DNA from: Acidimicrobiaceae bacterium
GTDB taxonomy: Bacteria; Actinomycetota; Acidimicrobiia; Acidimicrobiales; RAAP-2
Length of the DNA stretch: 45,976 bases
Direction of reading: 5' to 3'
Assembly: GCA_003138855.1 (NCBI GenBank)
Contig: PLHF01000112.1
Location: 28,094-74,069 of the forward strand
Position numbers and translations under genes: made by a program
Shown: in pieces, positions 28,707 through 33,932 of the stretch
Numbering within the stretch: the first letter of the stretch is position 1
Layout: each line of letters opens with the position of its first letter
Notes under the pieces: model-generated
Seen by the model: the letters and a program-made list of their open reading frames with translations, nothing else
The model's database searches: none
Told to the model about the DNA's origin: nothing

Positions 28707-28736
28707 TTGACCGTATACGAGAACCTGTTCTAGCGT
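28707..28736 (+). promoter_or_regulatory. Promoter of the acyl-CoA synthetase gene overlapping a KstR-like operator
   Basis: TTGACC (28707-28712) and TAGCGT (28731-28736) are separated by 18 bp. The palindrome at 28720-28731 fills the spacer and touches the -10, a position suited to repression. RNA from here would carry a leader of about 170 nt. Confidence 0.45.
28719..28732. promoter_or_regulatory. KstR-like operator 1 (GAGAACCTGTTCTA)
   Basis: Inverted repeat AGAAC-CT-GTTCT, with one mismatch in the next outer pair. The AACNNGTT core is that of the 14-bp operator of the TetR-family sterol regulator KstR (TnnAACnnGTTnnA). It lies between the divergent SDR and synthetase genes. A second copy is at 33919. 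Confidence 0.6.
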
Positions 28737-28914
28737 CCCCACCGGGACGGCGCCACCCCGGTCATCATCCTCGGGGCGGCCGACGCGGGCGACACCGCAG
28801 GCCGTTGACACGACCGGCGCGACGGCCCGAGAGGCCGGGACGTTCCGATCCGGACACCCGGCACGAGCCGGCAAAGCAACCGGCAATGACCGGCGTAGGG
28901 AGAAGCAGGGCATC

Positions 28915-30465
28915 ATGGGCGATCTGGGATTCTGGGCACTGGCACACGAGGATCCGGAGCATCTGGCTCTGGTGGCGCCCGACGGCGCCGAGTACACCGC
29001 CGGCCAACTGCTGGGGCGCGCCAACCAGGTCGTGCACGGCCTCCGTAACCTCAACCTCCGGCCCGGCGACGTGGTGGCCACCCTCCTCCCCAACTGCGTG
29101 GAGATGTTTGAGCTCTATCTGGCCGCCCTGCAGGCCGGGTGGTACCTGGTACCCATCAACCACCACCTGGTCGGCCCGGAGGTGGCCTACATCCTGAAGG
29201 ACTCGGAAGCCAAGGCATTCGTCGCCCACGAGCGGTTCACCGACGTCGCCCTCGAGGCGGCGGAGGAGGCCGAGCTCCCCTCGTCGGTGTGCTTCGCGGT
29301 CGGCGAGATCATCGGCTTCGGCTCCTATGCCACCATGCGGGACAACCAGCCCACCGACGATCCCTCCGACCGCACCGTCGGCGACGTCATGAACTACACC
29401 TCGGGAACCACCGGCAACCCGAAGGGCGTGTTCCGACCGCTCAGCGGGGCCACGCCCGAGGTGATGGCCCTCGGCCTGTCGGGGATCCTGTTCCTCTTCG
29501 GGGTGCAGCCTCGGGAGGACAACGTCCACATCGTGGGCTCTCCGCTCTACCACACCGCCGTCCTGCGGTACTCGGGCGCCTCTGCCCACCTGGGCCACAC
29601 CGTGGTGCTCATGGACAAGTGGATCCCCGAGGAGATGCTCCAGCTCATCGAGAAGTACCGGGTGACCACCTCCCACATGGTGCCCACCCAGTTCCACCGG
29701 CTGCTGGCGATGCCCGAGGAGGTCCGCACCAGGTACGACGTGTCCTCGCTGCAGCACATGATCCACGCGGCAGCGCCGTGCCCGGTGGACGTCAAGTACA
29801 AGATGATCGAATGGTGGGGCAACGCCATCGACGAGTACTACGCAGCCTCCGAGGGCGGCGGCACCCTGGTCACCGCCGAGGAGTGGTTGCTCAAGCCGGG
29901 CACCGTCGGGAAGGCGTGGCCGATCTCCGAGATCGCCATCTTCGACGACGCGGGCAACAGGGTCGAGGAGCCCAACGTGATCGGCACCGTGTACATGTCG
30001 ATGCAGACCGGTGACTTCTCGTACCACAAGGACGAGGAGAAGACGGCCGACAATCGGATCGGCAAGTTCTTCACCGTCGGCGATGTCGGCCTGATCGACG
30101 AGGACGGCTACCTGTTCCTCCGCGACCGCAAGATCGACATGATCATCTCGGGCGGGGCCAATGTCTATCCCGCCGAGATCGAGAGCGCCCTGCTGGGCTT
30201 TCCCAAGGTCGGCGACGTGGCCGTCTTCGGCGTGCCCAACGACGACTGGGGCGAGGAGATCAAAGCGGTCGTCGAGCCGGCCGAGGGAGTCGAGCCCTCC
30301 CCCGAGCTGGCCGAGGAGATCCTCGAGTACTGCGCCACCCGGTTGGCCAAGTTCAAGACGCCCAAGTCGATCGACTTCACCGAGGCCCTTCCCCGGGACC
30401 CCAACGGCAAGCTGTACAAGCGCAAGCTGCGCGACCCCTACTGGGAGGGTCGCTCCAAGATCTGA
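28915..30465 (+). CDS. fadD: Acyl-CoA synthetase (FadD4-like AMP-forming ligase)
   Basis: Adenylate-forming ligase (516 aa) that activates a carboxylic acid to its CoA ester with ATP. Visible: P-loop YTSGTTGNPKG at 161-171, the YYAASEGGGT motif, GDVGLIDEDGYLFLRDRKID, SGGANVYPAEIE, and the C-terminal catalytic Lys499 in NGKLYK. The segment AAPCPVDVKYKMIEWWG recalls mycobacterial FadD4 and related enzymes that accept bulky or sterol-type acids; the true substrate is unknown. AGGG lies 6 nt before ATG 28915. The KstR-like operator upstream ties it to the thiolase operon. It ends at a convergent terminator. Confidence 0.9.
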   Translation: MGDLGFWALAHEDPEHLALVAPDGAEYTAGQLLGRANQVVHGLRNLNLRPGDVVATLLPNCVEMFELYLAALQAGWYLVPINHHLVGPEVAYILKDSEAKAFVAHERFTDVALEAAEEAELPSSVCFAVGEIIGFGSYATMRDNQPTDDPSDRTVGDVMNYTSGTTGNPKGVFRPLSGATPEVMALGLSGILFLFGVQPREDNVHIVGSPLYHTAVLRYSGASAHLGHTVVLMDKWIPEEMLQLIEKYRVTTSHMVPTQFHRLLAMPEEVRTRYDVSSLQHMIHAAAPCPVDVKYKMIEWWGNAIDEYYAASEGGGTLVTAEEWLLKPGTVGKAWPISEIAIFDDAGNRVEEPNVIGTVYMSMQTGDFSYHKDEEKTADNRIGKFFTVGDVGLIDEDGYLFLRDRKIDMIISGGANVYPAEIESALLGFPKVGDVAVFGVPNDDWGEEIKAVVEPAEGVEPSPELAEEILEYCATRLAKFKTPKSIDFTEALPRDPNGKLYKRKLRDPYWEGRSKI

Positions 30466-30472
30466 CCCCGCG

Positions 30473-30498
30473 CCGGCCCGTCGCCGGGGTCGGGCCGG
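30473..30498. terminator. Hairpin between convergent fadD and GNAT genes
   Basis: CCGGCCCG, 10-nt loop, CGGGCCGG in the 36-bp gap between two convergent stop codons. Likely works on both strands. Confidence 0.55.
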
Positions 30499-30501
30499 AC
30501 G

Positions 30502-32633: not shown

Positions 32634-32660
32634 TGTGCTCCTTCCTCCGGGACGGACCGG

Positions 32661-33821
32661 TCAGATCCGCTCGATGATGGTGCCGGTGGCCAGGGCACCG
32701 CCGCAGCACATGGTGATGAGGGCCAGATCGGCGTCGGACCGCTCGAGCTCGTGGAGCGCGGTCGTGATCAGGCGGGCGCCCGTGGAGCCCACCGGGTGGC
32801 CCAGGGCGATGGCGCCGCCGTTGACGTTGACCTTGTCCCAGTCCACCTCGTGTACCTTGCCCCACGACATGACCACCGAGGCGAAGGCTTCGTTGATCTC
32901 GACGATGTCGATGTCGGCCAGGGTCATCCCCGCCTTGCGCAACACGTCGGTCGTGGCGGCGATCGGACCGTCGAGGTGGTAGTAGGGATCCGAGCCCACC
33001 AGGGTCTGGGCCACGATGCGGGCACGTGGGCGCAGCCCGGTCTCGCCGGCCCGCCTCTGGGACATCCAGAGCACCGCCGCCGCACCGTCGGAGATCTGCG
33101 AGCTGTTGCCGGCGGTGTGCATCCCGTCGGGCAGCACCGGCTTGAGGGCGGCCAGACCTTCGCGGGTGGTGCCACGGGGACCCTGGTCCTTGGTGACCAG
33201 CGTCTTCTCGCCGGTGGGGCCGTCGGGACCGACCACGGGAGCCTCCAGCGGGACGATCTCGCGTTCGAATCTGCCTTCGGCCACCGCCACGGCCGCCTTG
33301 CGCTGTGACTCGAAGCCCAACCAGTCGACGTCGTCCCGGGTGATGCCGTACTTCTGGGCGATCCGCTCGGCCGCCCCGAACTGGTCCGGCATGTCCCAGG
33401 GGAAACTCTCGGGCCGCGACTTCCCGGGGCCGTTGTAGGCGTTGGCGCCGAGCCCGACCCGGCTCATGGCCTCGACTCCGCAGGCGATGCCGGTGTCGAT
33501 GGCATCGGCGGCGATCAGATTGGCCACGAAGTTGTTGGCCTGCTGCGAGGATCCACACTGGCAGTCGACAGTGGTCGCCGCCACCCCATAGGGCAGCCCC
33601 TGGCTCAGCCACGCCGTGCGGGTCACGTTGGAGGCCTGTTCACCGGCCTGGGTGACACAGCCACCGACGATCTGCTCCACGTCGCCCGGGTCGACACCGG
33701 CCCGCTTGACCAGTTCGACCTGGGCATGGCCCAGGAGCTCGGCAGCGTGGAACCCGGCCATCCACCCGTTGCGCTTCCCGATCGGGGTGCGCACTGCTTC
33801 GACAATCACCGGCTGGGCCAT
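32661..33821 (-). CDS. fadA5: FadA5-like acetyl-CoA acyltransferase (steroid 3-ketoacyl-CoA thiolase)
   Basis: Degradative thiolase (386 aa). Catalytic Cys89 is in [10 protein letters not shown], His342 in GGAIALGHP, and the second Cys is 372 or 373 in [51 protein letters not shown], the PYYHLDGP segment and [15 protein letters not shown] are nearly the same as in Mycobacterium tuberculosis FadA5 as recalled, a thiolase that removes acetyl- or propionyl-CoA from the cholesterol side chain. ATG 33821 has GGGGG about 6 nt upstream. It is the first gene of an operon with the hydratase, thioesterase and GNAT genes, preceded by KstR-like operator 2. Confidence 0.92.
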
Positions 33822-33914
33822 CGTGGTTCCCCCTTGGAGGTCTCGGGTAACGGGCTGGGTGCTTCGCGTGGACGTGGGCTCGGCCCGTCGGACCGACCGG
33901 GCACCAGCGGCGCA

Positions 33915-33920
33915 AGTATA
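33915..33920 (-). promoter_or_regulatory. -10 (TATACT) of the thiolase operon
   Basis: Reverse-strand TATACT is close to the consensus and overlaps the edge of the palindrome at 33919-33932. No convincing -35 is seen. The leader to ATG 33821 would be about 85-90 nt. Confidence 0.5.
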
Positions 33921-33932
33921 GAACTGGTTCTA
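33919..33932. promoter_or_regulatory. KstR-like operator 2 (TAGAACTGGTTCTA)
   Basis: Perfect inverted repeat TAGAAC-TG-GTTCTA over the -10 region of the fadA5 operon. It fits the KstR pattern TnnAACnnGTTnnA at every fixed base. Binding would block the RNA polymerase site. Confidence 0.7.

Follow-up and report, generated by a model that had tools for sequence, protein, structure and literature searches.

The closest described system is that of KstR, whose operator in Mycobacterium smegmatis and M. tuberculosis is given as the 14-bp palindrome TAGAAC(N2)GTTCTA, located ahead of the -10 element and overlapping part of it (Kendall 2007; PMC1995591). According to the same text, the mycobacterial regulon includes fadA5, fadE34, echA19 and the mce4 operon, kstR controls its own expression and lies divergently to fadE34, and 16 and 31 other intergenic instances of the motif occur in the two species (PMC1995591). 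In Nocardioides simplex VKM Ac-2033D, 71 operons have been predicted to be under KstR (PMC7807495), and for this organism predicted KstR sites also appear in PMC7593942; KstR3 has been described as a TetR repressor of sterol catabolism (PMC10398937), and actinobacterial steroid degraders have been surveyed (Bergstrand 2016; PMC4810484) in a text that does not contain the term Ilumatobacter. Here, a stretch of 45,976 bases from an Acidimicrobiaceae bacterium (contig PLHF01000112.1, C47 below, positions 28094-74069; the window) was analyzed. Two palindromes of the KstR form in this window very probably serve as operators of a KstR-type repressor on sterol side-chain genes. The host genome comprises 4.0 Mb in 155 contigs and is 93.75% complete. 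The operators and the promoter elements that they overlap are the following:

Operator 1: 12-mer AGAACCTGTTCT at 28720-28731, 14-mer GAGAACCTGTTCTA at 28719-28732, between the divergent genes for a short-chain dehydrogenase/reductase (SDR) and fadD, with one outer mismatch
Operator 2: TAGAACTGGTTCTA at 33919-33932, upstream of the fadA5 operon
Operator 3: TAGAACCGGTTCTG at C40:29101, on another contig of the host, intergenic, upstream of a FadE34-like gene
28707..28736, plus strand: fadD promoter, with TTGACC at 28707-28712, an 18-bp spacer holding most of operator 1, and TAGCGT at 28731-28736
33915..33920, minus strand: TATACT, the -10 hexamer of fadA5, by reading

Both palindromes of the window were found where a first interpretation made from the DNA letters (the sequence-only reading) had placed them. 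Both have the KstR operator form, TAGAAC(N2)GTTCTA or TnnAACnnGTTnnA, with one outer mismatch in operator 1, and both partly overlap a -10 element. The promoter elements that this reading had assigned, TTGACC/18 bp/TAGCGT and TATACT, were also confirmed by reading, the -10 elements being assigned by eye: the last TA of operator 2 doubles as the first of TATACT, and that of operator 1 as the first of TAGCGT. The statement that 46 kb hold no other copy is correct for the 14-mer at up to one mismatch, since operators 1 and 2 were the sole matches of TAGAACNNGTTCTA in the window at this threshold, with a first-order Markov expectation of 0.004 and no match in 100 dinucleotide shuffles. The 12-mer core at one mismatch was also present at 18775 (AGAACTGGTTCG) and 32546 (AGAGCGCGTTCT), both within predicted genes.

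In the whole host genome, TAGAACNNGTTCTA at up to one mismatch was found at three places (0.34 expected from the first-order Markov model), all of them intergenic, which speaks against a random genome-wide spread of the motif. The third place, operator 3, lies 15 bp past a gene for an enoyl-CoA hydratase, with 72 bp left to the predicted start of the FadE34-like gene. The small regulon proposed from two operators is retained as regards both sites, and extended by at least a third unit, the FadE34-like one on contig C40. The 12-mer core AGAACNNGTTCT occurred seven times exactly, against two for the reversed pattern; these seven are the three operators and four copies within coding sequence (a LytR-CpsA-Psr gene, a WS/DGAT gene, a DUF4397-like gene that scores under the Pfam cut-off and a gene encoding 586 aa). 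At up to two mismatches, 41 sites were listed, and 26 of them had an intact AAC..GTT core, namely the three operators and 23 sites with two mismatches, which were treated as chance occurrences; 21 of these 23 were intragenic. The intergenic ones lay before a transposase-like gene (C74) and beside unrelated genes (C29). The C74 site had been considered because this contig carries a KshA_C gene, and was dropped. Among the 15 sites without an intact core, one is located within the open reading frame of KshA_C on that contig.

The genes associated with the three operators are listed below:

27661..28620, minus strand: SDR, Hsd4A/MFE-2-like 3-hydroxyacyl-CoA dehydrogenase (NF005861, E 9e-79, below cut-off)
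28915..30465, plus strand: fadD, acyl-CoA ligase, closest model FadD4, below cut-off
30502..31056, minus strand: GNAT acetyltransferase, final gene of the fadA5 row (Pfam PF00583, E 4e-14)
31081..31842, minus strand: 4HBT thioesterase-superfamily protein, in the same gene row as fadA5 (Pfam PF03061, E 6e-5)
31839..32633, minus strand: echA19-like enoyl-CoA hydratase, 27 bp downstream of fadA5 (NF005864, 405.7 bits, cut-off 316)
32661..33821, minus strand: fadA5, steroid 3-ketoacyl-CoA thiolase (NCBIfam equivalog NF005889, 673 bits, cut-off 515; PDB FadA5, E 2e-167)
Contig C40: FadE34-like double acyl-CoA dehydrogenase, 755 aa, followed by a MaoC gene

The core targets of mycobacterial KstR, fadA5, fadE34 and echA19, are thus represented at the host sites, the EchA19-like protein scoring 365.7 bits against the EchA19 model, under its cut-off of 400, and the name FadE34 resting on length and double acyl-CoA dehydrogenase architecture, as no FadE34 model matched. 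The ligase, the FadE34-like, EchA19-like and SDR proteins and FadA5 together make up one round of side-chain beta-oxidation. In the PDB, the SDR matched a (3R)-hydroxyacyl-CoA dehydrogenase (E 1.5e-77) and 17-beta-HSD type 4; the comparable Hsd4A of Mycolicibacterium has been described as a bifunctional side-chain enzyme (PMC10398937). The names FadD17 and FadD19 were rejected for the ligase, whose best model was FadD4, below its cut-off. Membership of the GNAT gene in the fadA5 operon is suggested by its spacing. Gene starts were taken from a small codon-model caller, the SDR start at 28620 was picked from orthologues, and in loci L232 and L261 the starts of fadD or fadA5 were placed behind the sites by tblastn, which also found the SDR on the opposite side of the site.

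Two observations were made next to the operators. Beyond operator 2, the window encodes a protein of the fatty acid hydroxylase family (PF04116, 34451-35692), with homologues beyond the fadA5 operator in seven of the nine genus loci listed. Between operator 3 and FadE34 (L038, 9102-9190), the host lacks a weakly DoxX-like open reading frame of 151-159 aa found there in five relatives; a short reading frame remains, its start codon close behind a TAGAAA.

Conservation of the sites was followed in the 14 genomes of the genus, four of them less than 90% complete; all were searched and the regions around the sites were read. The site upstream of fadA5 was present in all 14, exactly in 13 and with one mismatch in G303. 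The site between SDR and fadD was also present in all 14, with one mismatch each, the two genes lying on separate contigs in G301. The FadE34-type site was found in 11 of the 14; none reached the threshold in G297, G304 and G231, and the contig of G307 ends before FadE34. Pairwise identity, calculated on genus rows only after those of other genera had been dropped, was 99% in the arms of the fadA5 site, 49% in its two centre bases and 34-36% in its flanks. The corresponding values were 100, 50 and 34-39% for the EchA19 site (in a set with two rows from G305) and 96, 75 and 34-41% for the FadE34 site. Arms that are kept while centre and flanks drift, as at fadA5, are the pattern of a dimer operator. 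The promoter elements were maintained as well: TACT after the fadA5 operator was invariant in all 14 genomes, and TTGACC and TAGCGT were retained at the fadD operator in all 14, not in G047, a member of another genus of the same family. In G047 an exact site lies between the SDR and fadD orthologues, and in G244, from another family, an exact site precedes fadA5. Conservation upstream of orthologous genes, on which the sequence-only reading had staked its proposal, thus extends through the genus and beyond it.

The position of echA19 provided a clean natural control, since this gene has an operator of its own only when it is separated from fadA5. In nine of the 14 genus genomes a large gene separates the two (PQQ/BamB-like according to Pfam in two of the three examined, homologous in all nine by tblastn, and divided between two contigs in G300 and in G305), and in all nine echA19 has a site of its own, with one mismatch in six, two in two and three in one. 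The separating gene is lacking in the host, G231, G304, G306 and G307, where echA19 directly follows fadA5. In four of these five no site better than four mismatches was detected upstream of echA19, and in G307 none at up to one mismatch. G047 lacks both the separating gene and the echA19 site.

Additional sites were observed before other genes of the genus. The sequence TAGAATCTGTTCTA lies before a ChsH2-type OB-fold gene at L270 4255 (G306) and L274 2712 (G307, by its start); taken together with the echA19 sites, this points to AAT being tolerated in place of AAC in one operator arm. Exact copies of TAGAACNNGTTCTA were found 24-28 bp before lumazine synthase (ribH) in three members (L233 4985-4998, L236 4581-4594 and L244 2772-2785), the gene being identified by family scan on L233 and by tblastn homology in the other two; the repressor may also control the supply of flavin. 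One-mismatch sites precede a cytochrome P450 gene in three members (L237 4992, L246 4385 and L254 2942), two of them with a divergent gene of the amidohydrolase family.

The candidate regulator was found elsewhere in the host genome:

Contig C98 of the host (G000), 3626-4228: KstR-like TetR regulator

The regulator gene had been said to lie outside the window, and the host's 32 TetR_N matches all lie on contigs other than C47. Only one of the 32 resembles KstR. Its best PDB matches were KstR chains (E 1e-32), followed by the uncharacterised TetR protein 3bjb (4e-20) and then by 5e-10, and its sole NCBIfam match at 1e-25 or better was KstR. By tblastn it reached 120 bits against KstR, with 44 bits for the next host TetR (30 of the 32 loci compared). 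Its DNA-binding domain is identical to that of KstR at 38 of 58 positions, and at 24 of 30 over GGYEAVQM...SKD. As for the lineage, 16 named relatives of this protein (84-91% identity) come from metagenome-assembled genomes labelled Acidimicrobiales or Acidimicrobiaceae, which places the host outside Mycobacteriales.

The association between regulator and motif was also observed in 296 genomes of the class, a KstR-like gene being counted at E 1e-20 or better. Such a gene was present in 75 genomes and absent from 221. The mean motif count at up to one mismatch was 5.44 in the positive and 1.80 in the negative genomes, and the reversed-pattern control gave 5.53 and 7.52, respectively; the motif exceeded the control in 30/75 positive against 9/221 negative genomes. 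KstR-like genes and the motif go together across the class, in genomes that are related and not independent, so that significance is overstated. FadA5-type genes (E below 1e-150) occurred in 19/75 positive and 10/221 negative genomes. Thirty FadA5-type loci of the class (62-100% identity) were screened without requiring the AAC..GTT core, and eight had a site at up to two mismatches within 300 bp upstream (three exact, three with one mismatch and two with two), all eight in KstR-like-positive genomes, from which 20 of the 30 loci come. In G035, from another family, 13 of 16 sites were intergenic; a KshA_C Rieske gene has a perfect site 10 bp upstream, and other sites neighbour genes of the ChsH2-like, EchA19-like, ligase, acyl-CoA dehydrogenase, luciferase-type and amidohydrolase kinds. 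This links the motif with steroid catabolism in another part of the class. In G184 the motif precedes an acyl-CoA dehydrogenase gene with a kstR-like gene immediately after it. Site positions, conservation, presence of the regulator and co-occurrence all support the reading of the palindromes as KstR-like operators.

Several results weigh against this reading. The C98 protein does not reach the curated KstR cut-off (NF033703 equivalog, 160.2 against 280 bits), which is reached in none of the 296 class genomes, and in the next ungapped stretch, in the ligand domain, only 22 of 82 positions are identical to KstR. The regulator gene had been expected to carry an operator of its own; the gene was found and the operator was not, either in the host promoter or in those of the 16 named relatives, and no degenerate operator was evident in an alignment of the host promoter with 11 relatives. 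Motif counts within the genus are not in excess (64 against 70 for the reversed-pattern control over the 14 genomes), and the genus signal consists of site position only, not motif number. The SDR/fadD site is less diagnostic because its centre is invariant (100%, arms 90%) and its flanks are 49-52% identical. No site lies upstream of fadA5 in G047, and 22 of the 30 FadA5-type class loci have none at up to two mismatches within 300 bp upstream.

Autoregulation and the divergent arrangement of kstR and fadE34 are thus missing from the host clade, and some kstR-like genes of more distant Acidimicrobiia do carry upstream sites. With an intact AAC..GTT core required, a site at up to two mismatches was located just upstream of the kstR-like gene in 16 of 66 named loci (70 in total, 66 scanned) and in 11 of 30 class loci, raw counts from partly overlapping sets, uncorrected for chance. 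Among relatives at 75-80% identity, some have a site in their own promoter and others do not. As the host and its relatives at 84-91% lack the site while some of those at 75-80% have one, it was probably the host clade that lost autoregulation.

In the proposed mechanism, a dimer of the KstR-like TetR protein from C98 would bind TAGAAC(N2)GTTCTA in the promoters, covering the -10 element. The bound repressor would shut off three units, SDR with fadD, fadA5-echA19-thioesterase-GNAT, and the FadE34-like gene with MaoC on C40, which would take a steroid-type acyl-CoA side chain through activation, dehydrogenation, hydration, a second dehydrogenation and thiolysis. Mycobacterial KstR is released by a sterol-derived CoA thioester; by analogy, an acyl-CoA intermediate of the pathway may release the repressor. 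Binding, repression, operon structure, ligand and substrate are inferred here from what was computed, namely the sequence and position of the sites, their conservation, the presence of the regulator and its co-occurrence with the motif.

The alternative that survives best concerns the pathway: the operators would be read by the KstR-like protein, and the genes would degrade a substrate that is not a whole sterol, for instance a different isoprenoid or a branched-chain acid. This is a possibility of some weight, though less probable than not. Ring-degradation markers are sparse in the genus: KshA_C was detected in four of the 14 genomes and an HsaC-like dioxygenase scoring over 190 bits in two, none over the cut-off and the host included in both cases, against fadA5 and fadD sites in all 14. 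No ring-degradation gene is present at the three host sites, and neither the KshA_C nor the HsaC-like gene of the host adjoins a site at up to one mismatch. Against this alternative, FadA5 matches the steroid thiolase model over its cut-off, the host possesses both KshA_C and HsaC-like genes, and the absence of ring markers elsewhere is drawn from two markers in a set with four of 14 genomes less than 90% complete. The same limits apply to the ten of 14 genus genomes in which side-chain sites occur without KshA_C (four of the 14 less than 90% complete, two ring markers examined). The HsaC-like extradiol dioxygenase of the host (L317, G000:C12:1244-2101) scored 214.7 bits, below the cut-off, and lies with a TetR gene on a 5.4-kb contig, in which the host listing contains no site at up to two mismatches. 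As a tentative extension, which is itself not favored over its contrary, the KstR code of this genus may govern a stand-alone acyl side-chain module, in cells that mostly lack the ring markers examined, through a repressor that no longer regulates itself and whose ligand domain has diverged and has perhaps been re-tuned; this would be a reduced or perhaps older regulon that senses side-chain acyl-CoAs and does not serve growth on whole sterols.

A second alternative, that another TetR protein of the host with a similar palindrome reads the sites and the KstR-like gene regulates something else, is unlikely. It is favored by the 32 TetR_N matches in the genome and by a KstR-like gene that lies near none of the three sites and lacks its own operator. 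However, only the C98 protein resembles KstR over its length (120 bits, next 44, for the 30 of 32 compared), motif abundance tracks KstR-like genes across the class, and kstR-like genes are linked to the motif in G184 and in the 11 of 30 class loci with an upstream site at up to two mismatches. Moreover, all eight class fadA5 loci with a site belong to KstR-like-positive genomes (source of 20 of the 30 loci). Chance occurrence of such palindromes beside acyl-CoA genes, for which the four exact 12-mer cores inside coding genes offer a precedent, is a negligible explanation, since the arms are conserved in 14 genomes while the fadA5 centre and flanks drift, and since 0.34 sites were expected genome-wide.

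The predicted regulation by a KstR-type repressor places the KstR code, which has been studied chiefly in connection with sterol use by mycobacteria and rhodococci, in a class that is mostly represented by uncultured genomes; the 14-mer is the same there, whereas the sensing domain of the repressor has diverged. The presence of TAGAACNNGTTCTA before fadA5-type genes could be used as a genomic marker for such pathways in environmental actinobacteria, and a small regulon of three operators makes it testable which ligand KstR originally sensed. No publication on KstR in Acidimicrobiia was found in a search that covered few subscription papers. The sequence-only reading had proposed a new lineage for the KstR code in case the host lay outside Mycobacteriales; the host is indeed outside that order, and because KstR sites have already been predicted in Nocardioides, only the extension to the class Acidimicrobiia appears to be new.

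Compared with the known systems, the predicted regulon shares with Nocardioides a KstR code outside Mycobacteriales, although in another lineage and with a far larger predicted set there. KstR2 and KstR3 are likewise TetR repressors of sterol catabolism, but for other parts of the pathway, and the KstR2 operator differs in sequence from that of KstR. Mycobacterial KstR remains the nearest counterpart. The 14-mer operator, the targets fadA5, fadE34 and echA19 and a similar TetR DNA-binding domain are found on both sides, whereas the host has three sites, no autoregulatory site, an unlinked regulator and a diverged ligand domain. The operator and core targets would therefore be those of the known KstR, and the sequence of the regulator, its scope and its autoregulation would set the Acidimicrobiia system apart.

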